DNA from: Liolophura sinensis
Lineage: Eukaryota; Mollusca; Polyplacophora; Chitonida; Chitonidae
Reading direction: 5' to 3'
Assembly: GCF_032854445.1 (NCBI RefSeq)
Contig: NC_088300.1
Span: forward strand, 80,900,101-80,964,100
DNA length: 64,000 nucleotides
The translations under genes and the position numbers were made by a program. Below, in pieces: positions 10,001-62,690 of the stretch. The notes below the pieces were generated by a model. It was not told where the DNA came from, ran no database searches, and saw only the letters and a program-made list of their open reading frames with translations. How positions within the stretch are numbered: position 1 is the first letter of the stretch; every line of letters starts with the position of its first letter.

Positions 10001-13000
10001 GTCAGTATGTGTGTGAAGTGGAGAGAGTTCTAAATGACTACCTCGCACAGCAGATCAGCAGAGTTGACACAGACATTATCCTCAAGGTGCGCGTTTCTGG
10101 CCAGAGTCAGCAGCCAGAAGTTACCTCCCCTGAGCTGAGATTTGCGTTCTTCCCTGCATTTTATGTTCACAACACTGAGGTTCACGTCAGCAATCTTTCG
10201 CCGACGTCTACCATCAGGGTGTCTGTGGCTGACAAGCTCATGGATCAGATGAGGGTAAGTCGTACACAGTCAGATCACTTCAGTATTCCATCCTGATCAT
10301 ATGAGGGTAAGTCGTACACAGTCAGATCACTTCAGTGTTCCTTCCTGATCAGATGAGGGTAAGCCGTACACAGTCAGATCACTTCAGTATTCCATCCTGA
10401 TCACATGAGGGTAAGTCGTACACAGATCACTTCAGTGTTCCATCGTGATCAGATGAGACTAAGTCGTACAGTCAGATCACTTCAGTGTTCCATCCTGATC
10501 ATATGAGGGTAAGCCGTACACAGTCAGATCACTTCAGTATTCCATCCTGATCAGATGAGGGTAAGTCATACACAGTCAGATCACTTCAGTGTTCCATCCT
10601 GATCAGATGAGGGTAAGTCGTACACAGTCAGATCACTTCAGTATTCCATCCTGATCATATGAGGGTATGTCGTACAGTCAGATCACTTCAGTTTTCCATC
10701 CTGATCATATGAGGGTATGTCGTACACAGTCAGATCACTTCAGTATTCCATCCTGATCAGGTGAGGGTAAGTCGTACACAGTCAGATCACTTCAGTGTTC
10801 CATCCTGATCAGATGAGGGTAAGCCGTACACAGTCAGATCACTTCAGTATTCCATCCTGATCATATGAGGGTATGTCGTACAGTCAGATCACTTCAGTGT
10901 TCCATCCTGATCATATGAGGGTAAGTCGTACACAGTCAGATCACTTCAGTGTTCCATCCTGATCAGATGAGGGTAAGCCGTACACAGTCAGATCACTTCA
11001 GTATTCCTTCCTGATCAGATGAGGGTATGTCGTACACAGTCAGATCACTTCAGTGTTCCATCCTGATCAGATGAGGGTAAGTCGTACACAGTCAGATCAC
11101 TTCAGTATTCCATCCTGATCATATGAGGGTATGTCATACAGTCAGATCACTTCAGTGTTCCATCCTGATCAGATGAGGGTAAGTCGTACACAGTCAGATC
11201 ACTTCAGTGTTCCATCCTGATCATATGAGGGTAGGCCGTACACAGTCAGATCAATTCAGTGTTCCATCCTGATCAGATGAGGGTAAGTCGTACAGTCAGA
11301 TCACTTCAGTATTCCATCCTGATCAGATGAGGGTATGTCGTACACAGTCAGATCACTTCAGTGTTCCATCCTGATCAGATGAGGGTAAGCCGTACACAGT
11401 CAGATCACTTCAGTATTCCATCCTGATCAGATGAGGGTAAGTCGTACACAGTCAGATCACTTCAGTGTTCCATCCTGATCATATGAGGGTAGGCCGTACA
11501 CAGTCAGATCAATTCAGTGTTCCATCCTGATCAGATGAGGGTAAGTCGTACAGTCAGATCACTTCAGTATTCCATCCTGATCAGATGAGGGTATGTCGTA
11601 CACAGTCAGATCAATTCAGTGTTCCATCCTGATCAGATGAGGGTAAGCCATACACAGTCAGATCACTTCAGTATTCCTTCCTGATCAGATGAGGGTATGC
11701 CGTACACAGTCAGATCACTTCAGTGTTCCATCCTGATCAGATGAGGGTAAGTCGTACACAGTCAGATCACTTCAGTATTCCATCCTGATCAGATGAGGGT
11801 AAGTCGTACAGTCAGATCACTTCAGTATTCCATCCTGATCAGATGAGGGTATGTCGTACACAGTCAGATCACTTCAGTGTTCCATCCTGATCAGATGAGG
11901 GTAAGCCGTACACAGTCAGATCACTTCAGTATTCCTTCCTGATCAGATGAGGGTATGTCGTACACAGTCAGATCACTTCAGTGTTCCATCCTGATCATAT
12001 GAGGGTAAGTCGTACACAGTCAGATCACTTCAGTGTTCCATCCTGATCATATGAGGGTATGTCGTACAGTCAGATCACTTCAGTGTTCCATCCTGATCAG
12101 ATGAGGGTAAGTCGTACACAGTCAGATCACTTCAGTGTTCCATCCTGATCATATGAGGGTAGGCCGTACACAGTCAGATCACTTCAGTATTCCTTCCTGA
12201 TCAGATGAGGGTAAGTCGTACACAGTCAGATCACTTCAGTATTCCATCCTGATCAGATGAGGGTAAGTCGTACACAGTCAGATCACTTCAGTATTCCTTC
12301 CTGATCAGATGAGGGTAAGTCGTACACAGTCAGATCACTTCAGTATTCCATCCTGATCAGATGAGGGTAAGCCGTACACAGTCAGATCACTTCAGTGTTC
12401 CATCCTGATCAGATGAGGGTAAGTCGTACACAGTCAGATCACTTCAGTATTCCATCCTGATCATATGAGGGTATGTCGTACAGTCAGATCACTTCAGTGT
12501 TCCATCCTGATCAGATGAGGGTAAGTCGTACACAGTCAGATCACTTCAGTGTTCCATCCTGATCAGATGAGGGTAAGTCGTACACAGTCAGATCACTTCA
12601 GTGTTCCATCCTGATCAGATGAGGGTAAGTCGTACACAGTCAGATCACTTCAGTATTCCATCCTGATCATATGAGGGTATGTCGTACAGTCAGATCACTT
12701 CAGTGTTCCATCCTGATCAGATGAGGGTAAGCCGTACACAGTCAGATCACTTCAGTATTCCATCCTGATCAGATGAGGGTAAGTCGTACACAGTCAGATC
12801 ACTTCAGTGTTCCATCCTGATCATATGAGGGTATGTCGTACACAGTCAGATCACTTCAGTGTTTCATCCTGATTAGATGAGGGTAAGTCGTGCAGTCTCT
12901 GAATGCCTTGTTACGTTTTACAAAGCTCCTACAGCATGATGAAGTGTCGCCATTTTATTTGCCTCTTACATGTATAATAATTTCAGATTTGAATTACATG

Positions 13001-30742: not shown

Positions 30743-31670
30743 GGTTCAGGACAGTTAACCTGCAGCACACAGGTTTCATTCACTCCAAAAGCTGGCTCCC
30801 TTAACGTAAGTGAAATGTTCTTGAGTATTATGTCCACAACAATCAACAAACTAAATTTACAAATTCCAAGGAAAAAATAAATTATTTTTTATGCTGTTTT
30901 TCTTTAACGAATTTGATCCTCAATCATTTCTTTTTTAACATTGCTCCCAGAATGTTTTAAAAAGTTGACTGGTACGGTTTTTATTATTGCTGGAGAGGAA
31001 GCCAGCATGAGCCTTTGATCCCAATCCATTCTCTGCATAGGGACAAATGTCTTAGTTCACTTCATCAATAAGTCCATGTCACTTTAATATTTAACAAACA
31101 AAAAAAAACGTTTTAATTTCTGTATAATCAATTATGTATTAGCGTTGGAAGAGCAATCAAACCAGCAAAGTACTCCAATCTGTAAATTAGTTGTATTGAT
31201 CCTGGAGATTATAAAAGTTATAGGACTTGGGAAACCGGTTTTCATGGAATGGAGATCTAGAGATAAATCTCTTTGGTGAACAATCAGGGTTTCTGCGGAC
31301 TTTGTATGATCGAGTCAGAATTCAGCTGATAATACCTCTGTTTATTCCCATAATTTCCTATCTTTATATGCATACCTGTTGTTGAGCTTAGCCTTGAAGG
31401 CAATAACCGATATTAATAAGCCTTCTGAATCAACACTTCATGCGACATCCGTCTGAACATACATGTAGCACCTTACAAATACATACTATCCACATCACAG
31501 GTATATTTCACGCTTAAAAGGCACCCAAGACGTACTCTACTGCCTCCTCAGGATTATTTAACGTGTTTGCATCAATCACAACATGAATTTTCGCGATCGG
31601 TTTTTTGCCCATGCCTGGCACACAAGATGCACACCATTGACTAGGATGAATTATTTAACATGTATCTGTG
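30743..31670. other. intergenic, SINE scraps and ETFRF1 3' flank
   Basis: At 30803-30860 a minus-strand SINE head (GTAAGTGAAATGTTCTTGAG then TATTATGTCCACAACAATCA); at 30986-31016 a plus-strand piece of the same family's body (GGAGAGGAAGCCAGCATGAG). TTTATT at 31341-31346 is a possible ETFRF1 poly(A) signal on the minus strand. Confidence 0.5.
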
Positions 31671-36200: not shown

Positions 36201-39200
36201 TACATTCACTAAAAGGAAATTCCCCTACCCAAGTACATGTACAAACAAAGAAGGCTTTTTCAATCATGTTACATGTATCCAGCAAAAGGAAATTCCCCTA
36301 CCCAAGTACATGTACAAACAAAGAAAGCTTTTTCAGTCATGTAACATGTACCCAGCAAAAGAGAATTCCTCTCGGTCTCCCTGAAGTACAAACAAGGAAA
36401 GGCCTGTGAGGCTTGTTATGTACAGGTACATTCAGCAAAAGAAAATTCCCCTCCCCAAGCATTAACAAGGAAAGGCCTGTCAGCCTTGTTAGGTACATGT
36501 ACATCCAGCAAAAGCAAATTTGTCTCCCCCACAATGAATCTAAACAACTTTGTGACATTTGTTTGTGACATTCATATTCTGCTAAGATAATCAGTCTTTG
36601 AATGTAACCTATTGTATTTAAATAACCACCACAGTAATAATTACGATTAAACTAAATATTGTTAGTTTCTGTTTGCATATTATACAAAGTAAACAATCTG
36701 CTACTTATAGCCATTTTAGTTCATGGTCAATGGTCATTTTACGGTTCTGCTAATGCCAGTTTTATGTTTGAATCCTGTTTTTTGGGTTGCTGTTGACAGA
36801 CTATTCAGGAGTTGCAGGATCTGTTAAAGTTCAAGCTGGATGCTGCCTCACATGAGATATTACTGAGAGCCACAGAGTTACAGGATCCAGAGACACTCAA
36901 TCTACAATTCACAACAAAAAGTGATCAGATCTCTCTCTGTATCTGGGGAAATCTGTGTAAAAACCCTAGGTAAGTACTGACATGAATTTGATATCACAAA
37001 ACCCTAGCTTTACTGAGACTGTTACAGGATTATTTCACATGCTCAGTGTCTGTTTTTGTTAGTTTTATTTATTTGTTCATCTGATATTTATTTATTAGTG
37101 TTTAACACTCTGCTCGAGAGTGATGGAGGTCATGTTTATGTGATTGCAGTCAGGTTTATGTGATGGTGGTAAGGTTTATGTGGCAGAGGTCAGGTTTATG
37201 TGACAGAGGTCAGGTTTATGTGGTGGGTGTCAGGTTTATGTGGTGGATGTCTGGTTTATGTGGTGTTGATCAGGTTTATGTGACAGAGGTTAGGCTTATG
37301 TGGTGGTCAGGCTTATGTGGTGGCAGTCAGGCTTATGTGGTTGTGATCAGGCTTATGTGGTGGTGATCAGGTTAATGTGGTGGCAGTCAGGCTTATGTGG
37401 TGGTCAGGCTTATGTGGTGGTGATCAGGCTTATATGGTGGTGATCAGACTTATGTGGTGGGGGTCAGGTTTACGTGATGAAGGTCAGGGTTATGTGGTGG
37501 CGGTCAGGCTTATGTGGTTGTGATCAGGCTTATGTGGTGGTGACCAGGTTGATGTTTTGGGAGTCAGGCTTATGTGGTGGTGATCAGGTTATGTGGTGAT
37601 GATGAGGTTTATGTGGTGGTGATCAGGTGTATGTGGTGGTGATCAGGTTTATGTGACAGAGGTCAGGCTTATGTGGTGGCAGTCAGGCTTATGTGGTGGC
37701 AGTCAGGCTTATGTGGTGGTGATCAGGTTTATGTGGTGGGGGTCAGGTTTACGTGATGAAGGTCAGGATTATGTTATGGAGGTCAGATTTATGTGGTGGC
37801 GGTCAGGTGTATGTGGTGGTGATCAGGCTTATGTGGTGGTGATCAGGCTTATGCGGTGGTGATCAGGTTTATGTGGTGGTCAGGCTTATGTGGTGGTGGT
37901 CAGGCTTATGTGGTGGTGATCAGGCTTATGCGGTGGTGATCAGGTTTATGTGGTGGTGATGAGGTTAATATGGTGGCAGTCAGGTTTATGTGATGGCAGT
38001 CAGGCTTATGTGACAGGTCAGGTTCATGTGACAGAGGTCAGGTTTATGTGGTTGTTATCAGGTTATGTGTTGGCAATCAGGTGTATGTGGTGGTGATCAG
38101 GTTTATGTGACAGAGGTCAGGCTTATGTGGTGGCAGTCAGGCTTATGTGGTGGCAGTCAGGCTTATGTGGTGGTGATCAGGTTTATGTGGTGGGGGTCAG
38201 GTTTACGTGATGAAGGTCAGGATTATGTGATGGAGGTCAGATTTATGTGGTGGTGGTCAGGTGTAAGTGGTGGTGATCAGGCTTATGTGGTGGTGATCAG
38301 GCTTATGTGGTGATCAGGCTTATGTGGTGGTGATCAGGCTTATGTGGTGGTGATCAGGCTTATGCGGTGGTGATCAGGTTTATGTGGTGGTGATCAGGTT
38401 AATATGGTGGCAGTCAGGTTTATGTGATGGCAGTCAGGTTTATGTGACAGGTCAGGTTCATGTGACAGAGGTCAGGTTTATGTGGTTGTTATCAGGTTAT
38501 GTGGTTGTTATCAGGTTATGTGGTGGCAATCAGGTGTATGTTGTGGTGATCAGGTTTATGTGACAGAGGTCAGGTTTATGTGATGGCGGTCAGGTTTATG
38601 TGGTGGTGATCAGGTTATGTGGTTGATGTCAGGTGTATGTGGTGGTGATGAGGTTTATGTAGTGGCTGATCAGGTGTATGTGGTGGTGATCAGGTTTATG
38701 TAGTGGCTGATCAGGTGTATGTGGTGGCGGCCAGGTTTATGTGGTGGATGTCAGTTTATGTGGTGGCGATCAGGTTTTTGTAGTGGTGATCAGGTATACA
38801 TGGTGGATGTCAGGTTTATGTTTGTCATTCAGGACCTAGTCGTATGAGTTTACAGACACAGGCTTTATGTTTGTTATCCAGGACCTATTTGTATGAGTTT
38901 ACAGACAGAGGCTTTATATTTGTTGTTCAGGACCTAGTTGTATGAGTTTACAGACACAGGCTTTATGTTTGTCATTCAAGACCTAGTCATATGAGTTTAC
39001 AGACACAGGCTTTATGTTTGTCATTCAGGACCTAGTCGTATGAGTTTACAGACACAGGCTTTATGTTTGTCATTCAAGACCTAGTTGCACGAGTTTACAG
39101 ACACAGGCTTTATGTTTGTTATTCAAGACCTAGTCATATGAGTTTACAGACACAGGCTTTATGTTTGTCATTCAAGACCTAGTTGTATGAGTTTACAGAC

Positions 39201-42200
39201 ACAGGCTTTATGTTTGTCAGTCAAGACCTAGTTGTATGAGTTTACAGACACAGGCTTTATGTTTGTCATTCAAGGCCTAGTTGTATGAGTTTACAGACAC
39301 AGGCTTTATGTTTGTTATTCAGGACCTAGTCATATGAGTTTACAGACACAGGCTTTATGTTTGTCATTGAGGACCTAGTTGTATGAGTTTACACACACAC
39401 GCTTTATGTTTGTCATTCAAGACCTAGTCATATGAGTTTACAGACACAGGCTTTATGCTTGTTATTCAGGACCTAGTTGTATGAGTTTACAGACACAGGC
39501 TTTATATTTGTCATTCAGGACCTAGTTGTATGAGTTTACAGACACAGGCTTTATGTTTGTCATTCAGGACCTAGTTGTATGAGTTTACAGACACAGGCTT
39601 TATGTTTGTCATTGAGGACCTAGTCGTATGAGTTTACAGACACAGGCTTTATGTTTGTTATTCAGGACCTAGTCGTATGAGTTTACAGACACAGGCTTTA
39701 TGTTTGTTATTCAGGACCTAGTCGTATCAGTTTACAGACACAGGTTTTATGTTTGTTATTCAAGACCCAGTCGTATGAGTTTACAGACACAGGCTTTATG
39801 TTTGTTATTCAGGACCTAGTCGTATGAGTTTACAGACACAGGTTTTATGTTTGTTATTCAGGACCTAGTCATATGAGTTTACAGACATAGGCTTTATGTT
39901 TGTCATTCAAGACCTAGTCGTATGAGTTTACAGACACAGGCTTTATGTTTGTCATTCAGGACCTAGTCATATGAGTTTACAGACACAGGCTTTATGTTTG
40001 TTATTCAGGATCAAGTCGTATGAGTTTACAGACACAGGCTTTATGTTTGTTATTCAGGACCTAGTCGTATGAGTTTACAGACACAGGCTTTATGTTTGTT
40101 ATTCAGGACCTAGTCATATGAGTTTACAGACACAGGCTTTATGTTTGTTATTCAGGACCTAGTCATATCAGTTTAAAGACACAGGCTCTATATTTGTCAT
40201 TCAGGACCTAGTCATTTCAGTTTACAGACACAGGCTTTATGTTTGTCATTCAGAACCTAGTCATATCAGTTTACAGACACAGGCTTTATGTTTGTCATTC
40301 AGGATCAAGTCGTATGAGTTTACAGACACAGGCTTTATGTTTGTTATTCAGGACCTAGTCATATCAGTTGAAAGACACAGGTTTTATGTTTGTTATTCAG
40401 GATCAAGTCGTATGAGTTTACAGACACAGGCTTTATGTTTGAGATCCCTAAACAACTGACACTGGCAGAATGTGCGTTCCGTGTTCTTTCCACTAAGTAT
40501 GACCACTACTCCATGTACTGTAAGACCTACACTCCCAGATTACGCAAGAAAAAAGGTAAGATTTGCATGTAAATCTGCCTAATGCAAAGCCATTTTCAAT
40601 ACACACGGCTTGTTAATATGGTCTTAAGACATCATTTTCTTAAAAAATATGTGAACACAAAGAACATCATCAATTGTTCCATATTTTGTTCCGAGATTCA
40701 TTGTACTGACACAAAGTTTTGTTTAGTGTCCATATTGTATTAAAGTAAAGCTTCTGTAACAAAGTTTTTGAGCGTTACAACAAGTTTTCTACAATCCCAG
40801 CTGTTTGTAGATCTATGAAGGTATGGAGCTATCTTGTGTCTGTTGTACACAGAGGGACTAGTGGAGGTATAAAACATAACTAAAGCAATCTTTTGTCTGT
40901 TGTGAGCAGAGGGACTTGTGGAGGTATAAAACATAACCAAAGCAATCTTTTGTCTGTTGTGAGCAGAGGAACCTGTAGAGGTATAAAACATAACTAAAGC
41001 AATCTTGTGTCTGTTGTGAGCAGAGGAACCTGTAGAGGTATAAAACATAGCTAAAGCAATCTTTTGTCTGCTGTGAGCAGAGGAACCTGTAGAGGTATAA
41101 AACATAACTAAAGCAATCTTGTGTCTGCTTTGCACAGAGGAACCTGTGGAAGAGGTGTGTGAAAATGAAGAGGAGCGGGGGGAAAAGGAAGCAGAGGACG
41201 AGGGTGAGAAGACTGAAGGAGAGGAAGCTAAGCCTGAAGGGGCGGAACTAGAAAAAGAGGATACCATGGTAACTATATCATGTTGTATCATACCTGAGAG
41301 TGGAGGTACATATACATGTACATGTAACTTGAACTGGTCCACAGGGAAAGGCTGCACCTCAGCCAGACATGGCTCACTACAGAGGAGAATATGTACAGAC
41401 ATCGGATATCATTCACAAATGCGTTTGTGGTTTGAAGTTACAAGTATTCATTATTTCTGAAATTATTCTTTTAGAATATACATGTACATGAATATTTTCT
41501 GTTGAGTTCCCATGATTTAATCTTGAGATGTGATTATGGTATTTTGTCACTGTTTGGCCAGGACTTGATGGCAAGTCTGCGTGAGGCAAACAACGAAGAA
41601 GAGGCAGAAGAGGAGACGGGCAGTCAAGATGGAAAAGGGGAGGAGCCAAAGGAGGAAGAGGAGGAGCCTTGGGAAGATCCTGTCACTCCAGGTAAGCAGT
41701 GGAGATCGCAACCCACCAGCAACCGCTCCTTCCTTGTATTGTCACTTATCTGTTGTACGTGTAATGAGTGAATGTTATCCCATGGACAAACCCCACCTTA
41801 CTTAGTAGTCAGCTCGTCCAACATGACAGTACATATAGTATATATGTTCAGACATATGTAGGCTAGGGTTCTAGTCTGTGGCCTCTGTGTATGATACCCT
41901 AAGTCCGTCCTATGTATGATGCCCTAAATCAGTCCTGTGTATGATGCCCCAAGCAAATGGTGTGTGATACACAATTACATGGCCTGTGTATATGATGCCT
42001 CAAGTCAATGACATATGCATGGTGCCTTAAGCCATTGGCCTGTGTGTGATGCCCTAGGCCCATGACCTGTGTATAATACCCTAAGTTCATGGCCTGTATA
42101 TATGATGTCCTAAGTTCATGGCCCGTGTGTGATGCCATAGGCCCATGACCTGTGCATAATACCCTAAGTTTGTGGCCTGTATATATGATGTCCTAAGTCC

Positions 42201-45200: not shown

Positions 45201-48200
45201 GGAGTACATGGACTATGTAGCAGACTTCTCCTCTCCCATCGCCCCCAGCCCCGGCAAGGACCAGAAGGAGCCCAAAGACAACCAGGAAGAGAAGAAGAAA
45301 GAGGAGAAACCCCCCATAGGTGTGAGCATGAGGTGAGATAGATCAGGAGAAACCATCCATACGGGTGAACATGAGGTGAGATAGATCAGGAGAAACCACT
45401 TATAGGGGTGAAGCTGAGGTGAGATAGATCAGGAGAAACCACCCTCAGAGGTGAATCTGACATTTGATAGATTGGAAGAAACCAATTATATTGGTGAACA
45501 TGAGGTCAGATAGATCAGGAGAAACCACCCATAGGGGTGAACACGAGATAGATCAGAGAAAACCACCCACAGGGGTGAACAGGCGGTGAGACAGATCATA
45601 GAAAACCACCCATAGGGTGAGAGGTGAGATAGATCAGAAAAAAACACCCATATTGGTGAACGTGAGGTCAGATAGATCAGGAGAAACCACCCATAGGGGT
45701 GAACACGAGGTGAGATAGATCAGAAAAAAACACCCATATTGGTGAACAGGAGGTGAGATAGATCAGGAGAAAACATCCATACGGGTGAACATGAGGTGAG
45801 ATGGATTGGAGGAAACCACCTATATGGGTGAACATGAGGTGAGATAGATCAGGAGAAACCACCCATATTGGTGAACAGGAGGTGAGATAGATCAAGAGAA
45901 AACATTCATCGGGGTGAACACGAGGTGAGATAGATCAGGAAAAAACACCCGTAGGAGTGAACCTGAGGTGAGATGGATCAGGAGAAACCACACATAGGGA
46001 TGAATCTGAGATGAGTTAGATCAGGAGAAACCACCCATAGGGGTGAACACGAGGTGAGATAGATCAGGAAAAAACACCCGTAGGAGTGAACCTGAGGTGA
46101 GATGGATCAGGAGAAACCACACATAGGGATGAATCTGAAGTGAGTTAGATCAGGAGAAACCACTCATAGGAGTGAACATGAGGTGAGATAGATCAGGAGA
46201 AACCACCCATATGGGTGAACATGAGGTGAGATAGATCAGGAGAAACCACCCATATGGGTGAACATGAGGTGAGATAGATCAGGAGAAACCACTCGTAGGA
46301 GTGAACATGAGGTTAGATAGATCAGGAGAAACCACTCGTAGGAGTGAACATGAGGTGAGATAGATCAGGAGAAAATACCCATAGGGGTGAACAAGAGGTG
46401 AGATAGATCCGGAGAAACCACTTGTAGGAGTGAACATGAGGTGAGATAGATCAGGAGAAACCATCCATACAGGTGAACATGAGGTGAGATGGATTGGAGG
46501 AAACCACCCATATGGGTGAACATGAGGTGAGATGGATTGGAGGAAACCACCCATATGGGTGAACATGAGGTGAGATGGATTGGAGGAAACCACCCATATG
46601 GGTGAACATGAGGTGAGATGGATTGGAGGAAACCACCTATATGGGTGAACACGAGGTGAGGTAGATCAGGAGAAAATACCCATATGGGTGAACATGAGGT
46701 GAGATAGATCAGGAGAAACCACTCGTAGGAGTGAACATGAGGTGAGATAGATCAGGAGAAACCATCCATACAGGTGAACATCAGGTGAGATGGATTGGAG
46801 GAAACCACCCATATGGGTGAACATGACGTGAGATGGATTGGAGGAAACCACCCATATGGGTGAACATGAGGTGAGATGGATTGGAGGAAACCACCCATAT
46901 GGGTGAACATGAGGTGAGATGGATTGGAGGAAACCACCTATATGGGTGAACACGAGGTGAGGTAGATCAGGAGAAAATACCCATATGGGTGAAAATGAGG
47001 TGAGATAGATAAGGAGAAACCATCCATAATAAGGTTACCATAATATGTGCTGGTTTTACCCTAGTCTTAGTTAGTCACGGGTCACCAGATGTGTTGGTTT
47101 TACCCTAGTCTTAATTACTGTCACAGGTCACCAAATGGGCTGTTTTTACCCTAGCCTTAATTACTGTCACAGGTCGCCAGATGTGTTGGTTTTACCCATA
47201 GCCTTTATTACGGTCACAGGTCACCAGATGTGCTGTTTTTACCCTAGTCTTAATTACTGTCACAGGTCACCAGATGTGCTGTTTTTACCCTAGTCTTAAT
47301 TACTGTCACAGGTCACCAAATGGGCTGTTTTTACCCTAGCCTTAATTACTGTCACAGGTCGCCAGATGTGTTGGTTTTACCCATAGCCTTTATTACGGTC
47401 ACAGGTCACCAGATGTGCTGTTTTTACCCTAGTCTTAATTACTGTCACAGGTCACCAAATGGGCTGTTTTTACCCTAGCCTTAATTACTGTCACAGGTCG
47501 CCAGATGTGTTGGTTTTACCCATAGCCTTTATTACGGTCACAGGTCACCAGATGTGCTGTTTTTACCCTAGTCTTAATTACTGTCACAGGTCACCAGATG
47601 TGCTGTTTTTACCCTAGTCTTAATTACTGTCACAGGTCACCAAATGGGCTGTTTTTACCCTAGCCTTAATTACTGTCACAGGTCGCCAGATGTGTTGGTT
47701 TTACCCATAGCCTTTATTACGGTCACAGGTCACCAGATGTGCTGTTTTTACCCTAGTCTTAATTACTGTCACAGGTCACCAGATGTGCTGTTTTTACCCT
47801 AGTCTTAATTACTGTCACAGGTCACCAAATGGGCTGTTTTTACCCTAGCCTTAATTACTGTCACAGGTCGCCAGATGTGTTGGTTTTACCCATAGCCTTT
47901 ATTACGGTCACAGGCCACCAAATGGGCTGTTTTTACCCTAGCCTTAATTACTGTCACAGGTTACCAGAAGATGTACTGTTCATGGAGGAACCTCAAGTGG
48001 CACGCTGGGATAACATTAACATGTGCTGGAAGCTGGACGGCTTCACAGATATCAAATATTTTGAAGGTTAGTATGAACAGTGGTAAACAGTGGTAAATAG
48101 AATTCTCAACATATATGTGAAAAAGTGGAAAATTATGAACTAGTTCATGGCATATATGGAACCCTCACTAACTTAAGGATTCACTGACTGGAACCTTCAC

Positions 48201-54200: not shown

Positions 54201-57200
54201 ACAGTCTCCTGCAGCACCCAGGGGGACCTTGTTTGACATGTATGAATGGAGTGGTAGATTCAGGATTACAGCCTCCTGCAGCACCCAGGGTGACCTTGTT
54301 TGACATGTATGAATGGAGTGGTAGATTCAGCATTACAGTCTCCTGCAGCGCCCAGGGGGACCTTGTTTGACATGTATGAATGGAGGGGTAGATTCAGGAT
54401 TACAGTCTCCACCAGTGCCTAGGGGGACCTCGTTTGACATGTATGAATGGAGGGGTAGATTCAGTTATTACATTCTCCTGCAGCGCCTAGGGGGACCTTG
54501 TTTGGCATGTTTGAATGGAGGGGTAGATTCAGCATTACAGTCTCCTGCAGCGCCCAGGGGTACCTTGTTTGATATGTATGAATGGAGGGGCAGATTCAGG
54601 ATTACAGTCTCCTGCAGCGCCCAGGGGGACCGTATTTGATATGTATGAATGGAGGGGCAGATTCAGCATTACAGTCTCCACCAGTGCCCATGGGGACCTT
54701 GTTTGACATGTATGGATGGAGTGGTAGATTCAGCATTACAGTCTCCTGCAGCACCCAGGGGGACCTTGTTTGACATGTATGAATGGAGAGGTAGGTTCAG
54801 CATTACAGTCTCCTGCAGCGCCCAGGGGGACCTTGTTTGACATGTATGAATGGAGAGGTAGATTCAGGATTACAGTGTCCTGCAGCACCCAGGGGGACCT
54901 TGTTTGACATGTATGAATGGAGTGGTAGATTCAGGATTACAGCCTCCTGCAGCACCCAGGGTGACCTTGTTTGACATGTATGAATGGAGTGGTAGATTCA
55001 GCATTACAGTCTCCTGCAGCGCCCAGGGGGACCTTGTTTGACATGTATGAATGGAGGGGTAGATTCAGCATTACAGTCTCCTGCAGTGCCCAGGGGAACC
55101 TTGTTTGACATGTATGAATGGAGGGGTAGATTCAGGATTACAGTCTCCACCAGTGCCCAGGGGGACCTCGTTTGACATGTATGAATGGAGAGGTAGATTC
55201 AGTTATTACATTCTCCTGCAGCGCCTAGGGGGACCTTGTTTGGCATGTTTGAATGGAGGGGTAGATTCAGCATTACAGTCTCCTGCAGCGCCCAGGGGTA
55301 CCTTGTTTGATATGTATGAATGGAGGGGCAGATTCAGGATTACAGTCTCCTGCAGCGCCCAGGGGGACCGTATTTGATATGTATGAATGGAGGGGCAGAT
55401 TCAGCATTACAGTCTCCTGCAGGACCCAAGGGGACCTTGTTTGACATGTATGAATGGAGTGGTAGATTCAGCATTACAGTCTCCTGCAGTGCCCAGGAGG
55501 ACCTCGTTTGACATGTATGAATGGAGGGGTAGATTCAGTTATTACATTCTCCTGCAGCGCCTAGGGGGACCTTGTTTGGCATGTTTGAATGGAGGGGTAG
55601 ATTCAGCATTACAGTCTCCTGCAGCACCCAGGGGGACCTTTTTTGACATGTATGAATGGAGAGGTAGATTCAGCATTACAGTTTCCTGCAGCGCCCATGG
55701 GGACCTTGTTTGACATGTATGAATGGAGAGGTAGATTCAGCGTTGGTGCAGATCAGCAGAACTCAGTATGGACATTTTATCATGTACAATGTGTTGTTCA
55801 GTTGAAAATATTATAAAACTATTCAACTATATGATTGAGATTAATACAGATATTTGATTGTCTGAATGAGAAGTAATATTTGATGACACTAATATCTGCT
55901 TATGCTCTGCTCCTCCAACATGCGACTTTTCTGGTTCCATTGTTCCTCATTTTCTTTATGCATCTTTAACTTGTGTTGTTGGCTTCTACTGTTTCAATTT
56001 TTATTGCAATTCATTCTTTTAGTAACCTTTGATCTGAGAAGATAGTGAGTAGATTTAAATCGGTTTTTAGGTTACCATGGAGTCACATCCGGCCTTTTTT
56101 TTATTACGAATTGGGTGTTTTGTCACAGACCTGTCACTCAGCTATCCAATACAGAGGCAGCTTGTGTAGAAAAACATCTGCATTATAGTTGTGCTAATAA
56201 CACCCAGTGCTACCACAAAACGTAATTCAGATGATTCATCCAATTCTTTGCATGACTGGCATTTGATTGACTGACCCTACTTGGCCATCATTGGGCTATG
56301 GTATGCCAGGGGGGATTACTCTGCAGCATTGTCACAACATCACAATTTGAAAATTGTGTATTTAATATTAGGTTACAGATTAGGTGGTGTTAAGTTTTGA
56401 TGATATTTTCTACACTAGTTACAAATGGAATTTACTCTGGTCTACAAATATTATACCTCATAAACAAATCAAAATCCTAAAAAGAGGTGTAGTAAAATAA
56501 ATGAATTAGGATCAGAGTTAACAGGTGGGATTCACTTGGTAATATTTCCGTAGTTAACGGCTGGGATTCACTTGGTAATATTTCCGTAGTTAACGGCTGG
56601 GATTCACTTGGTAATATTTCCGTAGTTAACAGCTGGGATTCACTTGGTAATGTTTTCATAGTTAACGGCTATAATGTATTTGGTAATGTTTTCATAGTTA
56701 AGAGCTAAGATTCACTTGGTAATGTTTCCATAGTTAACAGCTGGAATTTACTTGGTAATATTTTCATAGTTAACGGCTGGGATTCACTTGGTAATGTTTT
56801 CATAGTTAACGGCTGGGATTTACTTGGTAATGTTTTCATAGTTAACATCTGGGATTCACTTGGTAATGTTTCCATAGTGAACAGCTGGGATTCAATTGGT
56901 AATGTTTCTGTAGCTAAGAGCTAAGATTCACTTGGTAATGTTTCCATAGTTAAGAGTTGGGATTCACTTGGTAATATTTCCATATCTAAGAGCTAAGATT
57001 CACTTGGTAATGTTTCCATAGTTAACAGCTGGGATTCACTTGGTAATATTCCCATAGCTAAGAGCTAAGATACACTTGGTAATGTTTCCGTAGCTAAGAG
57101 CTAAGATTCACTTGGTAATGTTTCTATCGTTAACAGCTGGGATTCAATTGGTAATGTTTCCATAGTTAACTGCTGGGATTCATTTGGTAATATCTCCCTA

Positions 57201-60200
57201 GCTAAGAGCTAAGATTCACTTGGTAATGTTTCTATAGTTAACAGCTGGGATTCAATTGGTAATGTTTCCATAGTTAACTGCTGGGATTCATTTGGTAATA
57301 TCTCCATAGCTAAGAGCTAAGATTCACTTGGTAATGTTTCCATAGTTAAGAGCTGGGATTCAATTGGTAATATTTCCTTCATTGATTTCATCATAATAAG
57401 CAACTGGTGCATATTTTGCCATGCAAGAATGTTTTCAAACTGGTTGTATTTTGCTTTTAGGAGGACTGGTCTCTTTTTCTGATAACAAAGAGAAGAGCCA
57501 TGAAACTAAAGATGACTGAATATGATGAGACATTCTCTGACCAGCTCGCTGAGGATACGGAAGTAAGTAAAGTCAAGGAGACTGAGTATGACGAGACATT
57601 CTCTCACCAGCTAGCTGCGGATACAGAAGTAAGTAAACTCAAGATGACTGAGTATGACGAGACATTCTCTGACGAACTCGCTGAGGATACAGAAGTAAGT
57701 AAACTCAAGATGACTGAGTATGACGTGACATTCTCTGACGAGCTCGCTGAGGACACGGAAGTAAATGAACTCAAGATGACTGAGTGTGACGACACATTCT
57801 CTGACCTGCTAGCCGAGGATACGGAAGTAAGTAAACTCAAGATGACTGAGTGTGACAAGACATTCTCTGACGAGCTCGCTGAGGACACGGAAGTAAATGA
57901 ACTCAAGATGACTGAGTGTGACGACACATTATCTGACCTGCTAGCCGAGGATACGGAAGTAAGTAAACTCAAGATGACTGAGTATGACGAGACATTCTCT
58001 GACGAGCTCGCTGAGGATACGGAAGTAAATGAACTCAAGATGACTGAGTGTGACGACACATTCTCTGACCTGCTAGCTGAGGATACGGAAGTAAGTAAAC
58101 TCAAGATGACTGAGTATGACGAGACATTCTCTGACGAGCTCGCTGAGGATACGGAAGTAAATGAACTCAAGATGACTGAGTGTGACGACACATTCTCTGA
58201 CCTGCTAGCCGAGGATACGGAAGTAAGTAAACTCAAGATGACTGAGTATGACGTGACATTCTCTGACGAGCTCGCTGAGGACACGGAAGTAAATGAACTC
58301 AAGATGACTGAGTATGACGAGACATTCTCTGACCAGCTAGCTGAGGATACGGAAGTAAGTAAACTCAAGATGACTGAGTGTGACAAGACATTCTCTTACC
58401 TGTTAGCTGAGGATACGGAAGTAAGTAAACTCAAGATGACTGAGTATGACGAGACATTCTCTGACGAGCTCGCTGAGGATACGGAAGTAAATGAACTCAA
58501 GATGACTGAGTGTGACGACACATTCTCTGACCTGCTAGCCGAGGATACGGAAGTAAGTAAACTCAAGATGACTGAGTATGACGTGACATTCTCTGACGAG
58601 CTCGCTGAGGACACGGAAGTAAATGAACTCAAGATGACTGAGTGTGACGACACATTCTCTGACCTGCTAGCCGAGGATACGGAAGTAAGTAAACTCAAGA
58701 TGACTGAGTGTGACATGACATTCTCTTACCTGTTAGCTGAGGATACGGAAGTAAGTAAACTCAAGATGACTGAGTGTGACAAGACATTCTCTTACCTGTT
58801 AGCTGAGGATACGGAAGTAAGTAAACTCAAGATGACTGAATATGACGAGACATTCTCTGACGAGCTCGCTGAGGATACGGAAGTAAATGAACTCAAGATG
58901 ACTGAGTGTGACGACACATTCTCTGACCTGCTAGCCGAGGATACGGAAGTAAGTAAACTCAAGATGACTGAGTATGACGTGACATTCTCTGACGAGCTCG
59001 CTGAGGACACGGAAGTAAATGAACTCAAGATGACTGAGTGTGACAAGACATTTTCTGACCAGCTCGCTGAGGACACAGAAGTAAGTAAACTCAAGATGAC
59101 TGAGTGTGACAAGACATTCTCTTACCTGTTAGCTGAGGATAGGGAAGTAAGTAAACTCAAGATGACTGAGTATGACGAGACATTCTCTGACGAGCTCACT
59201 GAGGATAGGGAAGTAAGTAAACTCAAGATGACTGAGTGTGACGACACATTCTCTGACCAGCTAGCTGAGGATATGGAAGTAAGTAATCTCAAGATGACTG
59301 AGTATGACGTGACATTCTCTGATGAGCTCGCTGAGGATACGGAAGTAAGTAAACTCAAGATGACTGAGTGTGACAAGACATTCTCTTACCTGTTAGCTGA
59401 GGATACAGAAGTAAGTAATCTCAAGATGACTGAGTATGACGTGACATTCTCTGATCAGCTAGCTGAGGATACGGAAGTAAGTAAACTCAAGATGACTGAG
59501 TATGACGAGACATTCTCTGACCAGCTAGCTGAGGATACGGAAGTAAGTAAACTCAAGATGACTGAGTATGACGTGACATTCTCTGACCTGTTAGCTGAGG
59601 ATACGGAAGTAAGTAAACTCAAGATGACTGAGTGTGACGTGACATTCTCTGATCACCTAGCTGAGGATACGGAAGTAAGTAAACTCAAGATGACTGAGTG
59701 TGACGACACATTCTCTTACCTGCTAGCTGAGGATACAGAAGTAAGTAAACTCAAGATGACCGAGTGTGACAAGACATTCTCTGACCAGCTAACTGAGGAC
59801 ACGGAAGTAAGTAAACTCAAGATGACTGAGTGTGACGACACATTCTCTGACAAGCTCGCTGAGGATACGGAAGTAAATGAACTCAAGATGACTGAGTATG
59901 ACGTGACATTCTCTGACGAGCTGGCTGAGGACACGGAAGTAAATGAACTCAAGATGACTGAGTGTGACAAGACATTTTCTGACCAGCTCGCTGAGGACAC
60001 GGAAGTAAGTAAACTCAAGACGACTGAGTGTGACAAGACATTCTCTTACCTGTTAGCTGAGGATACGGAAGTAAGTTAACTCAAGATGACTGAGTATGAC
60101 GAGAAATTCTCTGACCATCTCACTGAGGATACGGAAGTAAGTAAACTCAAGATGACTGAGTATGACGTGACATTCTCTGACGAGCTCGCTGAGGATACGG

Positions 60201-62398
60201 AAGTAAATAAACTCAAGATGACTGAGTATGACGTGACATTCTCTTACCTGTTAGCTGAGGACACGGAAGTAAGTAAACTCAAGATGACTGAGTATGACGT
60301 GACATTTTCTGACCAGCTAGCTGAGGACACGGAAGTAAGTAAACTCAAGATGACTGAGTATGACGTGACATTCTCTGACCAGCTAGCTGAGGACACGGAA
60401 GTAAGTAAACTCAAGATGACTGAGTGTGACGTGACATTTTCTGACCAGCTAGCTGAGGATACGGAAGTAAATGAACTCAAGATGACTGAGTGTGACGAAA
60501 CATTTTCTGACCAGCTCGCTGAGGACACGGAAGTAAGTAAACTCAAGACGACTGAGTGTGACAAGACATTCTCTTACCTGTTAGCTGAGGATACGGAAGT
60601 AAGTTAACTCAAGATGACTGAGTATGACGAGAAATTCTCTGACCATCTCACTGAGGATACGGAAGTAAGTAAACTCAAGATGACTGAGTATGACGTGACA
60701 TTCTCTGACGAGCTCGCTGAGGATACGGAAGTAAATAAACTCAAGATGACTGAGTATGACGTGACATTCTCTTACCTGTTAGCTGAGGACACGGAAGTAA
60801 GTAAACTCAAGATGACTGAGTATGACGTGACATTTTCTGACCAGCTAGCTGAGGACACGGAAGTAAGTAAACTCAAGATGACTGAGTATGACGTGACATT
60901 CTCTGACCAGCTAGCTGAGGACACGGAAGTAAGTAAACTCAAGATGACTGAGTGTGACGTGACATTTTCTGACCAGCTAGCTGAGGATACGGAAGTAAAT
61001 GAACTCAAGATGACTGAGTGTGACGAAACATTTTCTGACCAGCTCGCGGAGGACACGGAAGTAAGTAAACTCAAGATGACTGAGTATGACGTGACATTCT
61101 CTGATCAGCTAGCTGAGGATACGGAAGTAAGTAAACTCAAGATGACCGAGTGTGACAAGACATTCTCTTACCTGTTAGCTGAGGATACAGAAGTAAGTAA
61201 TCTCAAGATGACTGAGTGTGATGAGACATTCTCTGACCAGCTCGCTGAGGATACGGAAGTAAATGAACTCAAGATGACTGAGTGTGACGACACATTCTCT
61301 GACCTGCTAGCCGAGGATACGGAAGTAAGTAAACTCAAGATGACTGAGTATGACGTGACATTCTCTGACGAGCTCGCTGAGGACACGGAAGTAAATGAAC
61401 TCAAGATGACTGAGTGTGACGACACATTCTCTGACCAGCTAGCCGAGGATACGGAAGTAAGTAAACTCAAGATGACTGAGTGTGACAAGACATTCTCTTA
61501 CCTGTTAGCTGAGGATACAGAAGTAAGTAATCTCAAGATGACTGAGTGTGATGAGACATTCTCTGACCAGCTCGCTGAGGACACGGAAGTAAGTAAACTC
61601 AAGATGACTGAGTATGACGTGACATTCTCTGACCAGCTAGCTGAGGATACGGAAGTAAGTAAACTCAAGATGACTGAGTATGACATTCTCTGACCAGCTA
61701 GCTGAGGACACGGAAGTAAGTAAACTCAAGATGACTGAGTATAACGTGACATTCTCTGACCAGCTAGCTGAGGATACGGAAGTAAGTAAACTCAAGATGA
61801 CTGAGTGTGACAAGACATTCTCTTACCAGTTAGCTGAGGATACGGAAGTAAATAAACTCAAGATGACTGAGTGTGACATGACATTCTCTGACCAGCTAGC
61901 TGAGGATACGGAAGTAAATGAACTCAAGATGACTGAGTGTGACAAGACATTCTCTGACGAGCTCGCTGAGGATACGGAAGTAAATGAACTCAAGATGACT
62001 GAGTATGACGAGACATTCTCTGACCAGCTAGCTGAGGATATGGAATTAATCCTGTTGGGGTCATCTGTTGGGGTTAGTCCATATTTTGTGGTCTTAACAG
62101 TCTGTGCTACTTCTCCGGACAGATTGGATCCTAGTACCCTGAACCAATCAAATAAATAAAAAGTTTTTAAGGAAATGCCACCATTGGCAGCTATAAAACC
62201 CTTTCCTCCCTGAATCAGCTAGGGACGTCAAACACTGAAGCTTTGGTCCATCTGTTCCAGTTCCAGTCCAACCTGTACCACCTTCTGATGAACATAGGCA
62301 GTGAGAAGGCCCAACAGAGGATTGACAATGTCAGCTATCAGTTTGTGCACTGTGTCCATCAGCTACTCTCTGCCACAAAATTCCTTACATATGCCTGA
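33220..62398 (+). CDS. DNAI7: DNAI7 (CASC1/IC97), axonemal inner-arm dynein chain, 19 exons
   Basis: The full coding sequence was assembled from 19 exons, all in phase, giving 755 residues when exon 18 is used once (human about 716). Order: a Lys/Glu-rich coiled start KKKLSKAEKEKLKKEEAERK, W-K-RYLMTDGSPDPSNQGEIN (Casc1 N-terminal region), ISLCIWGNLCKNPR, FEIPKQLTLAECAFRVLSTK, an acidic linker (exons 9-10), YHVIGGVFHFNLLHLPPQPK, DVLFMEEPQVARWD, FHINMPFQSWEIRP, MSYSWSKWN and a C-terminal helix ending in LLSATKFLTYA. Each block lines up with CASC1. The Chlamydomonas homolog IC97 is an intermediate chain of I1/f inner-arm dynein, so a role in ciliary beating is expected. Exons 8, 9, 12, 13, 18 and 19 have edges copied into tandem arrays. 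Confidence 0.96.
33223..34353 (+). other. DNAI7 intron 1
   Basis: A/T-rich intron of 1.1 kb without tandem arrays; ends in a run of TTTATT units and TTCAG. Confidence 0.8.
34354..34447 (+). CDS. DNAI7: DNAI7 exon 2
   Basis: Acceptor TTATTCAG|CCT, donor AAG|GTAAGA. PPKPGSGKKKLSKAEKEKLK then KEEAERKAQEE plus one base; highly charged helix start. Confidence 0.95.
34564..34655 (+). CDS. DNAI7: DNAI7 exon 3
   Basis: Acceptor TCTATAG|AG, donor GAA|GTAAGC. EEARLLEEQEEKKRKKKEKA then LEVERKKLEIE: a continuing charged coiled-coil segment. Confidence 0.95.
35029..35133 (+). CDS. DNAI7: DNAI7 exon 4
   Basis: Acceptor CCTGCAG|GAG, donor AAG|GTAATC. ERKHRKVQIEELNDVLDNHR then KALEGDNEFRRKEAK; 35 whole codons. 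Confidence 0.95.
35319..35459 (+). CDS. DNAI7: DNAI7 exon 5
   Basis: Acceptor TTTTGCAG|TGG, donor GCT|GTGAGT. WKRYLMTDGSPDPSNQGEIN then TYINLKRENN; the W-K-.Y...DGSPDPS motif is diagnostic of CASC1. The following intron has an A/T-only tract at about 35520-35575. Confidence 0.96.
35898..35978 (+). CDS. DNAI7: DNAI7 exon 6
   Basis: Acceptor TTGGCAG|CTT, donor ACA|GTATGT. LIDELEFLLHDTPKEELTDA then VVDHYKT, matching the family's LI.KL.F.L..TP segment. Confidence 0.95.
36205..36525. repeat. about 73-bp degenerate array, 4-5 copies, intron 6
   Basis: Units contain AGCAAAAGGAAATTCCCCTA, CCCAAGTACATGTACAAACA and AAGAAAGGCTTTTTCAGTCATGT. The two left units are close; the right ones are diverged. 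No exon sequence is included. Confidence 0.85.
36800..36969 (+). CDS. DNAI7: DNAI7 exon 7
   Basis: Acceptor GTTGACAG|ACT, donor CCTAG|GTAAGT. TIQELQDLLKFKLDAASHEI, then LLRATELQDPETLNLQFTTK and SDQISLCIWGNLCKNP plus two bases. Confidence 0.96.
37076..37125 (+). mobile_element. SINE head scrap
   Basis: ATTTATTTATTAGTGTTTAA then CACTCTGCTCGAGAG resembles the TTTATT..GGTGTTTTACGCCGTACTC head. Diverged and only about 45 bases long. Confidence 0.35.
37125..38820. repeat. about 20-bp GT-rich array, about 85 copies, intron 7
   Basis: Unit GTGGTGGTGATCAGGTTTAT with many variants (GACAGAGGTC, GGCAGTCAGGCT, GATGAAGGTC). A block at about 37640-37860 recurs at about 38095-38315 in the same variant order, a higher-order duplication of about 450 bp. 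Strong G/T excess on the coding strand. Confidence 0.93.
38822..40400. repeat. 50-bp array copying the exon 8 acceptor edge, about 31 copies
   Basis: Unit TTATTCAGGACCTAGTCGTA, TGAGTTTACAGACACAGGCT, TTATGTTTG. It contains the exon 8 acceptor (TTATTCAG|G) and about 40 bases of exon 8. Copies nearest the real exon carry GATCAAGTCGTATG, as the exon does, while most carry GACCTAGTCGTATG. Nearly every copy keeps a good CAG|G acceptor. 50 is not a multiple of 3. Confidence 0.95.
40401..40555 (+). CDS. DNAI7: DNAI7 exon 8
   Basis: Acceptor TTATTCAG|GATC, donor AAAG|GTAAGA. IKSYEFTDTGFMFEIPKQLT, then LAECAFRVLSTKYDHYSMYC, matching the family's GFEIPR.L...A.R.L.T.YDH block. It is the last of about 32 acceptor-bearing copies in a row, and the only one continuing into full exon. 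Confidence 0.95.
40797..41137. repeat. 57-bp array copying the exon 9 acceptor edge, 6 copies with the exon
   Basis: Exon-like starts follow a (C)AG at 40853, 40910, 40967, 41024, 41081 and the real one at 41138, exactly 57 apart. Each has GAGCAG|AGGRACYTGTRGAGG or a close variant, then TATAAAACATAACTAAAGCA and ATCTTTTGTCTGTTGT. About 17 exon bases are copied. 57 is a multiple of 3, but the unit has in-frame stops (for example TAA in ATAACTAAAG), so upstream starts would truncate the protein. Confidence 0.94.
41138..41268 (+). CDS. DNAI7: DNAI7 exon 9
   Basis: Acceptor TTGCACAG|AG, donor ATG|GTAACT. EEPVEEVCENEEERGEKEAE, then DEGEKTEGEEAKPEGAELEK and EDTM: the acidic linker of the family. 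Confidence 0.92.
41562..41691 (+). CDS. DNAI7: DNAI7 exon 10
   Basis: Acceptor TTGGCCAG|GAC, donor CCAG|GTAAGC. DLMASLREANNEEEAEEETG, then SQDGKGEEPKEEEEEPWEDP and VTP: second half of the acidic linker. Confidence 0.92.
41880..44125. repeat. 27-bp / 81-bp array filling intron 10
   Basis: The left part (to about 42600) is a 27-bp unit TTCATGGCCTGTGTATGATG then CCCCAAG. The right part is a higher-order unit of three such pieces (81 bp): TATGGCCTGTATGAATGATG, CGCTAAGTCCATGGCCCGTA, CATGATGCCCTATCTGTTTC, CTGTGTATGATACCTCAAGTC. 27 and 81 are multiples of 3, so frames stay open on both strands by default. Confidence 0.95.
44148..44291 (+). CDS. DNAI7: DNAI7 exon 11
   Basis: Acceptor TGTCCACAG|AA, donor CAGT|GTGAGT. 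EPPEWEDFDGDDDEVDLRAY, then HVIGGVFHFNLLHLPPQPKT and VNNWTMTQ. The GG.FH...L.LPPQ.K....WT motif is diagnostic. Confidence 0.95.
44292..45181 (+). other. DNAI7 intron 11
   Basis: Unique intron sequence without arrays; several short open frames of no recognisable kind. The acceptor GTGGTAG has a poor pyrimidine tract. Confidence 0.7.
45182..45332 (+). CDS. DNAI7: DNAI7 exon 12
   Basis: Encodes VNPPVLEYMDYVADFSSPIA, a Lys/Glu-rich stretch and then EKPPIGVSMR. Donor ATGAG|GTGAGA was chosen over nearby GT sites because only it gives the phase for exon 13 and restores PPIGVSMRLPEDVLFMEEP, which lines up with PPIEVTLEV.ENVIFFEDP of the vertebrate protein. Confidence 0.88.
45290..47030. repeat. 43-bp array copying the exon 12 donor edge, about 40 copies
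   Basis: Unit GGAGAAACCACCCATATGGG then TGAACATGAGGTGAGATAGATCA. About 30 of 43 bases match the end of exon 12 (GAGAAACCCCCCATAGGTGT then GAGCATGAG), followed by the donor GTGAGA, which is kept in nearly all copies. A 301-bp block (7 units) at about 46365-46652 is repeated at 46666-46953. Confidence 0.95.
47032..47959. repeat. 46-bp array copying the exon 13 acceptor edge, about 20 copies
   Basis: Unit TGTCACAGGTCACCAGATGT then GCTGTTTTTACCCTAGTCTTAATTAC. CACAG|GTYACCAG..ATGTRCTGTT matches the exon 13 start with one 3-base gap. Variant units (GGTTTTACCCATAGCCTTTA) recur every 3-4 units. It begins directly where the 43-bp donor array stops. Confidence 0.94.
47960..48066 (+). CDS. DNAI7: DNAI7 exon 13
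   Basis: Acceptor GTCACAG|G, donor GAAG|GTTAGT. LPEDVLFMEEPQVARWDNIN then MCWKLDGFTDIKYFE; the ..FFEDP..VRWD.....W..DG.....Y motif of CASC1. Confidence 0.94.
48310..48476 (+). CDS. DNAI7: DNAI7 exon 14
   Basis: Acceptor TTTCCCCAG|AG, donor AAA|GTAAGT. EERKLKFKTNRFDTMALLQD, then FHINMPFQSWEIRPHSANSA and an IIAAIVELEIEIK strand. H.NMP.QSWE.RP is diagnostic. Confidence 0.96.
48994..49083 (+). CDS. DNAI7: DNAI7 exon 15
   Basis: Acceptor ATTTCAG|GAT, donor ACA|GTAAGA. DSLCCLSKPGDKPELSHLLN then KWMTPRDFIT; 30 codons. Confidence 0.94.
49337..49408 (+). CDS. DNAI7: DNAI7 exon 16
   Basis: Acceptor TCATCAG|GCT, donor AAAAG|GTAAGT. ALQKAGVNVFPAEDSSKYVS then IQEK, matching AL.EAG.N.FP....... Confidence 0.95.
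49414..50850. repeat. about 19-bp C/T-rich array in intron 16
   Basis: Degenerate CCCCTGCCTCTCCTCACAAC units starting within about 6 bases of the exon 16 donor. The coding strand is nearly free of G. The 293-codon frame here is repetitive (SLPLLTIPASSHSPCLPS) and not a gene. Confidence 0.9.
51144..51296 (+). CDS. DNAI7: DNAI7 exon 17
   Basis: Acceptor TGTTGTAG|AGT, donor GAG|GTCAGT. SPIVEDRLYEQMALTSAAMS, then YSWSKWNSECANRDWILFQG and AEALEDEPLLE. F.WSKWN is diagnostic. Confidence 0.95.
51655..51840 (-). mobile_element. SINE, longest copy, minus strand
   Basis: Read on the minus strand it has the head ATTTGTGTCTTATGCCGTAC then TCAAAAATATTTCACTTACA, followed by a body with CAGCCAGTATTATGGTGGGA, GGAAACAAGG and CACCACCTGCAGGTTGCTGC. 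Same family as the heads at 32521 and 63812. The rest of this intron stretch (51297-52261) is unique. Confidence 0.65.
52262..55742. repeat. 67-bp minisatellite, about 52 copies, intron 17
   Basis: Unit CAGTCTCCTGCAGCGCCCAG, GGGGACCTTGTTTGACATGT, ATGAATGGAGTGGTAGATTC, AGCATTA. The block at about 54367-54639 recurs 738 bases later (55105-55377). No match to a DNAI7 exon was found, and exons 17 and 18 join in phase without any further exon. Confidence 0.95.
55743..56516 (+). other. unique part of DNAI7 intron 17
   Basis: A/T-rich intron between two arrays. I see nothing in it. Confidence 0.6.
56517..57375. repeat. 36-bp minisatellite, about 24 copies, intron 17
   Basis: Unit TTAACAGCTGGGATTCACTT then GGTAATGTTTCCATAG. 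Variants TAAGAGCTAAGATTCAC alternate in the right half. No exon bases included. Confidence 0.94.
57461..57562 (+). CDS. DNAI7: DNAI7 exon 18 (first copy)
   Basis: Acceptor TTGCTTTTAG|GAG, donor GAA|GTAAGT. EDWSLFLITKRRAMKL, then KMTEYDETFSDQLAEDTE. It aligns with the vertebrate segment around W.LL.F...RA..LK......F...L.E.TE. The last 54 bases plus 12 intron bases form the 66-bp unit repeated downstream. Confidence 0.93.
57509..62043 (+). repeat. 66-bp in-frame array copying the exon 18 donor edge, about 69 copies
   Basis: Each unit is 54 exon-derived bases (KMTEYDETFSDQLAEDTE and variants such as KMTECDDTFSDLLAEDTE) plus 12 intron-derived bases read as VSKL or VNEL. In most units GAA|GTAAGT is an intact donor; a large minority have GAA|GTAAAT. 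The frame stays open for 39 units, then TAA at 60077-60079 (GTAAGTTAAC), again at 60605-60607, and a 5-base deletion near 61684. A 528-bp block (8 units) is duplicated, the frame at 60086 recurring at 60614, and the first two stops are copies of one event. The antisense strand is open as well because 66 is a multiple of 3. Confidence 0.97.
62219..62398 (+). CDS. DNAI7: DNAI7 exon 19, C-terminus
   Basis: Acceptor GAATCAG|CTA; LGTSNTEALVHLFQFQSNLY, then HLLMNIGSEKAQQRIDNVSY and QFVHCVHQLLSATKFLTYA, TGA at 62396-62398. It matches the family's ..FH.TLYHM.......E.......CQFV..V..ML..T..L.Y. end. Phase 0 fits any GAA|GT donor of the exon 18 array. Confidence 0.95.
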   Translation, partial: LGTSNTEALVHLFQFQSNLYHLLMNIGSEKAQQRIDNVSYQFVHCVHQLLSATKFLTYA

Positions 62399-62690
62399 GG
62401 TCATATTGGTATCTAGTAACTCTGTAACAGGGGGCCTGATAGAGTAAAGGCCCAACAGAGGATTGACAATGTCAGCTATCAGTTTGTGCACTGTGTCCAT
62501 CAGCTACTCTCTGCCACAAAATTCCTTACATATGCCTGAGGTCATATTGGTATCAAGTAACTCTGTAACAGGGGGCCTGATAGAGTAAAGGCCCAACAAA
62601 GGATTGACAATGTCAGCTATCAGTTTGTGCACTGTGTCCATCAGCTACTCTGCCACAAAATTCCTTACATATGCCTGAGGTCATAGCAGA
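62308..62690. repeat. 141-bp triplication of the last-exon tail
   Basis: GGCCCAACAGAGGATTGACA.. starts at about 62308, 62449 and 62590. Copy 1 is coding. Copies 2 and 3 repeat the last 29 codons, the stop and about 50 bases of 3' UTR. Copy 2 is almost identical; copy 3 has lost two bases (CTCTCT to CTCT) and drifts after CCTGAGGTCATA. Confidence 0.94.

Follow-up and report, generated by a model that had tools for sequence, protein, structure and literature searches.

Coding minisatellites are seen as variable-number repeats in proteins. Tandem repeats that lie across intron-exon boundaries, at either end, have been described in amphioxus as 'mirages' (in Adh3, the globins BflGb6 and BflGb9, TnC and PGBD5); AG or GT signals are present in many of their units, and regular splicing is reported to be undisturbed (PMC3087553, PMC3902484). 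It has also been suggested that new introns could arise from such junction repeats (PMC3087553). In the human gene IFI6 (6-16), two downstream units of a donor minisatellite in exon 2 (Turri et al., 1995) are used, giving three mRNAs, according to a secondary statement (PMC4526556). The locus considered here is a 66-bp tandem array in the DNAI7 gene of the chiton Liolophura sinensis (assembly GCF_032854445.1, contig NC_088300.1, positions 80,900,101 to 80,964,100 of the forward strand; these 64,000 nucleotides are the window, and positions are counted from its first letter). A first-pass annotation had proposed that the array, a ladder of donor sites, could serve to make a protein with a variable number of 22-residue repeats, and had named plain intron as the alternative. 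The alternative is the better reading: with a probability of roughly 0.8, the array is an intron minisatellite anchored on a splice junction, and the donor next to the exon is the one that is spliced. This reading rests on the anatomy of the array, the gene model of the same assembly, the homologues that could be judged and sister arrays in the window. The parts of the locus are as follows.

57461..57562, forward strand: DNAI7 exon 18, the 17th coding block placed; residues 663-696 of the database protein P0001, exact, and aligned to the human chain 8j07_k3.
57503..62049, forward strand: tandem array of 69 units, all of 66 bp except one of 61 bp, from Tandem Repeats Finder (TRF) and a unit parse.
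57563..57568, forward strand: first donor, GTAAGT, joined in the database protein (P0001 residues 696 and 697).
57569..60076, forward strand: units 1-38 of the parse, open in the exon frame with phase-0 donors, a potential in-frame extension.
60077..60079, forward strand: first in-frame stop, TAA, from the unit parse.
61661..61721, forward strand: the 61-bp unit (unit 63), from the unit parse.
62219..62260, forward strand: start of the last exon as first proposed; with it the protein would gain 14 residues that neither P0001 nor the human chain has.
62261..62398, forward strand: last coding exon of DNAI7 with its stop; acceptor TTCCAG/TTC, P0001 residues 697-741.

The array starts inside exon 18, of which it covers 60 nt, and takes up 4,487 of the 4,698 bases of the intron that follows, straddling an exon-intron boundary as the 'mirages' do. 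TRF finds 69.0 copies with 88% matches, ending at 62049, and the unit parse finds 69 units, ending at 62051, in agreement with the ladder of about 69 units noticed at first in front of the last exon. Each unit is best described as 20 exon codons plus six intron bases, unit 0 being the true exon end; the earlier division into 18 codons and 12 intron bases is a close permutation that fits less well. Splice signals are carried by the units, again as in the 'mirages', and GT is kept in 68 of 69 (GTAAGT in 48, GTAAAT in 20), the last unit having TT in the hexamer TTAATC; the claim that every unit ends in GTAAGT or GTAAAT fails there only. The nine-base site of the first donor, GAAGTAAGT, is common to the downstream GTAAGT donors. 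Not all donors are in phase 0, as had been thought, but 63 are (units 0-62); unit 63 has only 61 bp, and the phase is therefore shifted for the last five GT donors (61716-61980). The count of up to 39 copies ahead of a stop was correct: 39 complete copies (units 0-38, the exon's own included) precede the stop at 60077, which is repeated at 60605 within a copied block, and the 39 donors of these units could leave the frame intact, 38 of them lying beyond the first. A candidate weak acceptor, TTCTCTGACCAG, was also spotted by eye inside each unit.

By this anatomy, the array fits the 'mirage' kind, and it is a hint that minisatellites of this boundary-straddling type, known from lancelets, exist in a mollusc as well. 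There are differences. The chiton array has 69 units, whereas 6 and 3 are reported for two BflGb6 haplotypes (PMC3087553, PMC3902484); its unit length is divisible by 3, giving a long open frame; and five junction arrays are found in the one chiton gene. The tandem consensus donors are also reminiscent of IFI6, where downstream donor use is known in mRNA, whereas the chiton array is known from DNA and a gene model. With coding minisatellites it shares a unit length divisible by 3 and an open frame; unlike them, it lies within the intron of the gene model, and the sole hint of translation is a weak synonymous excess (see below). A search of the literature for splice-junction repeats in molluscs or minisatellites in chitons found no such report, and the main text of PMC12005716 mentions neither tandem repeats nor minisatellites; a further search led to a paper on intron gain in potato.

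Compared with the exon copy, each full-length unit has 4-11 differences. Units 38-45 recur as units 46-53 with a single difference in 528 bp (60011-61066), and this eight-unit block copy is therefore taken as a recent higher-order duplication. The same block would be at home in an account in which the copy number or order of the units is partly an assembly product, the published assembly being 14x HiFi with a mean read of 8,347 bp. That account deserves almost no credence, as the array (4.5 kb) is shorter than the mean read and the 4-11 differences from the exon copy make assembly easier to anchor.

The naming of the gene as DNAI7 is borne out. The protein from the window's exons, used as a query, matches the human DNAI7 chain 8j07_k3 in the PDB (E 1.7e-106); chain 9fqr_Hn matches as well. 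The best homologue is P0001, a Liolophura sinensis database protein called 'dynein axonemal intermediate chain 7-like', which bears both PF15927 and PF12366 (CASC1 N- and C-terminal); its full-length homology with these domains makes it a member of the DNAI7 (CASC1/IC97) family. P0001 is placed exactly for 739 of 741 residues in 18 blocks (34354-62395; residues 2-741 minus 416, residues 1 and 416 falling outside), with codon-aligned block edges that may be 1-2 bases off at a split codon. Amphioxus, suggested as the source by the likeness to 'mirages', was dropped in view of this placement. Exon 18 is the 17th block, and its number holds if residue 1 has a separate exon. P0001 is the gene model of the same assembly, and it joins 57562 to 62261 with zero repeats.

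The 3' end of exon 18 is in phase 0, and across its junction with the last exon P0001 reads DTE/FQSNLYHLL and human DNAI7 reads EETEFHSTLYHM. The acceptor at 62219, on which the first-pass annotation had relied, has a pyrimidine tract that is good by eye (unscored); it was dropped in view of the homologues and P0001, and the supported acceptor is 62261, 42 bases further on. Since both are in phase 0, the in-frame argument survives the change of position. At the other end of this exon, a 141-bp unit (62306-62685, 2.7 copies, 98% matches) takes in the end of the DNAI7 coding sequence, the stop and some of the 3' untranslated region (UTR), so that the UTR holds extra copies of the last DNAI7 codons.

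Homologues were compared as the best 120 of 267 (P0001 and 119 homologues). Among the 120 aligned rows, P0001 included, three without both flanks were skipped; no residue lies between the ends of the two exons in 115 of the remaining 117, and one residue in the other two. This count misses inserts placed elsewhere by the aligner, and the length of the whole segment was also taken. It is 77-80 residues in 111 of 120 rows, too short to hold an additional copy of 22 residues. Three rows, with a shortened or misaligned segment (7, 16 and 48 residues), are unjudgeable, and six (P0041, P0046, P0047, P0054, P0055 and P0090) are longer by 31-133 residues in the array segment. The long inserts belong to Elysia, Pomacea, Biomphalaria, Physella and Bradybaena, all presumably gastropods, and to one further row; none of the six appears repetitive by eye or resembles the 22-mer. 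If these models are right, DNAI7 can accommodate insertions here. An extra repeat copy was seen in none of the 116 judgeable homologues among the 119.

A repeat query with the 20-residue segment ten times over, once from the exon and nine times from the intron, was scored on the repeat region and returned P0001 alone among 7,994 scored candidates (those sharing most words), a search of limited sensitivity. Together with the use of the first donor in P0001, the absence of a repeat-bearing protein among these candidates is moderate evidence against use of the ladder. It also bears on the suggestion that most transcripts use the first donor and a detectable minority use units 1 to a few, adding 22-residue copies without function. 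With many units sharing the nine-base donor and 38 more donors, past the first, that would be productive, with two downstream units in use in IFI6, and with a segment that may tolerate insertion (the six long rows), leakiness of this sort is conceivable; it is judged unlikely, given that no repeat-bearing protein was found among the scored candidates and that the amphioxus arrays are reported without interference in regular splicing (PMC3087553, PMC3902484).

The window contains two genes, the 3' part of a NUP210-like gene (match to PDB chain 7r5j_10, E 2.3e-25) and DNAI7, and arrays of the same design occur in both.

10243..12891, forward strand: 52-bp donor array in the NUP210-like gene; GT in 44 of 44 anchored units, TRF 51.4 copies.
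38811..40441, forward strand: 49-bp acceptor-anchored array, reaching 40 nt into the exon block that starts at 40402.
40827..41147, forward strand: 57-bp array over the acceptor of the block that starts at 41137; AG in 5 of 5 anchored units, TRF 5.6 copies.
45302..47028, forward strand: 43-bp array over the donor of the block that ends at about 45333; GT in 36 of 37 anchored units, TRF 40.4 copies.
47045..47968, forward strand: 46-bp array over the acceptor of the block that starts at about 47961; AG in 19 of 19 anchored units, TRF 20.0 copies.

Retention of GT or AG was counted over flank-anchored units only, and the TRF copy totals are higher for the 43- and 52-bp ladders. Ten arrays were delimited by the analyst in DNAI7, five of which straddle a splice junction: three are anchored on acceptors (49, 57 and 46 bp) and two on donors (43 and 66 bp). 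At all five, the gene model takes the exon-proximal copy. By the same delimitation, arrays make up 18,719 of the 25,825 bases in the 17 introns between the placed blocks, and are thus most of the DNAI7 intron sequence in this mollusc. The 43-bp ladder has an in-frame stop in its first intronic bases (45334), and the 52-bp ladder, whose first unit is probably the exon end (open frame, GTAAGT, weak match score of 5.3), has one in its first intronic copy (10294). Both keep GT, which makes donor retention a feature of the arrays and not of an open frame. The idea that an intact GT in every unit reflects selection was rejected because of these ladders, in which readthrough is closed and donors are kept equally well. 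Among the arrays of DNAI7 and those examined outside it, three donor-anchored ones were identified, and unit length is divisible by 3 in one of them (66, as against 43 and 52), as expected by chance. With a rough founder model and the analyst's delimitation, 1.7 of the ten arrays would be expected at junctions, where five are seen (P 0.018 for five or more); a preference of arrays for junctions is suggestive only. Two introns of DNAI7 are rich in arrays: that at 45334-47960 is almost wholly made up of two of the above arrays back to back (43 bp on the donor, 46 bp on the acceptor; 2,611 of 2,627 bases), and that before exon 18 has arrays at 52261-55741 (67 bp) and 56516-57377 (36 bp) that touch no junction.

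Whether the 66-bp array varies like coding sequence was examined in 66 units (all but unit 0, unit 63 with its 61 bp and the last, degenerate one), against a composition-matched expectation in which each change is put at random on the same base. The 40 distinct variants comprise 25 nonsynonymous, 14 synonymous and one stop, versus 29.2, 9.5 and 1.3 expected; a simpler model over all 68 full-length units gives 27, 16 and 1 of 44 versus 32.5, 10.0 and 1.5. The coding-like signal is weak in the synonymous test, and there is none in stops, which are not depleted (1 versus 1.3 expected), so that 39 open units are unremarkable. The idea that a frame open over 39 units reflects selection was rejected on these counts. 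A unit derived from an exon is open by origin, and an open ladder mainly needs a length divisible by 3. Amino-acid variability over the 20 codons does not correlate with that among homologues (rho -0.02, P 0.95). Position 9, for example, is acidic (Glu or Asp) in 103 of the 117 homologues and Val in 23 of 66 units, and radical changes (Glu/Val/Lys/Asp, Asp/Tyr, Gln/Leu) are common among the units.

These data bear on the possibility of a selected acidic helical spacer in DNAI7, made longer or shorter by the choice of donor or by the size of the array. The open frame across 39 units and the synonymous excess (P = 0.033) are in its favor, as is a single-sequence AlphaFold2 model of exon 18 and six intronic units, which is nearly one continuous helix (residues 3-141 and 143-165). 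The model is weak (mean predicted local distance difference test, pLDDT, 67.3; predicted template modeling score, pTM, 0.21) and was not used as evidence of function. Against a selected spacer stand the radical residue changes, a helical moment not above that of shuffles (P 0.38), which gives the 22-mer no mark of an amphipathic-helix design, the lack of an extra copy in P0001 and in the judgeable homologues, and sister arrays that behave alike with no open frame. Such a function is most improbable. Scarcely better placed, and highly unlikely, is a DNAI7 length series in which some transcripts leave the exon at one of donors 2 to 39 and individuals differ in the length of the array. Dynein f/I1 has been linked to a DNAI7-type intermediate chain (PMC11656769); were the series true, cilia would carry f/I1 intermediate chains with helical C-terminal spacers of varied length. 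As first advanced, use of the ladder for a variable-length repeat protein has found little positive support: P0001 has zero extra repeats, the query with nine extra copies recovered P0001 only, and the units, apart from the weak synonymous excess, are unlike the coding segment of DNAI7.

For a junction-anchored intron minisatellite, the founding step would be the duplication in tandem of sequence on both sides of the boundary between exon 18 and intron 18, followed by growth downstream into the intron through slippage or unequal exchange. Expansion on the intron side would leave the exon-proximal splice site in place. Splicing would then run from the donor at 57563 to the acceptor at 62261, the remaining copies being lost as part of the intron, and the C-terminus of DNAI7 would be normal. 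Splicing may pair the nearest sites across the exon and ignore the remaining copies, the exon-proximal choice possibly being due to exon definition favoring a short exon. Growth of the array was probably neutral. Since the founder was coding and the unit length happens to be divisible by three, the open frame can be regarded as a by-product.

Several points weigh against this reading. The downstream donors share GAAGTAAGT, and thus nothing in the site explains exclusive use of the first donor. SRSF1 or SR-protein activity can favor intron-proximal donors in other systems (PMC5585400), and the amphioxus authors themselves raise the possibility of cryptic splicing at the repeated signals (PMC3087553). 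P0001 is a database entry, and reads of 150 bases would be hard to place within the array. The repeat-region query, which matched no other DNAI7, would miss a diverged repeat. Finally, the synonymous excess (14 versus 9.5) is found in the coding frame only (P = 0.033, three frames, uncorrected; P 0.709 and 0.870 in the other two).

While the protein side of the array is probably ordinary, its splicing side offers a natural contest among 68 GT donors, 48 of them with GTAAGT, one of which is used in the gene model. Junction counts could show how the spliceosome picks an exon-proximal site with no guide from the site sequence. Elsewhere in the window, a 60-bp repeat (3.3 copies, 14384-14584) lies in the region of the NUP210-like gene, and a 77-bp unit is present in 83 copies over 6.4 kb (24378-30743) between that gene and DNAI7.
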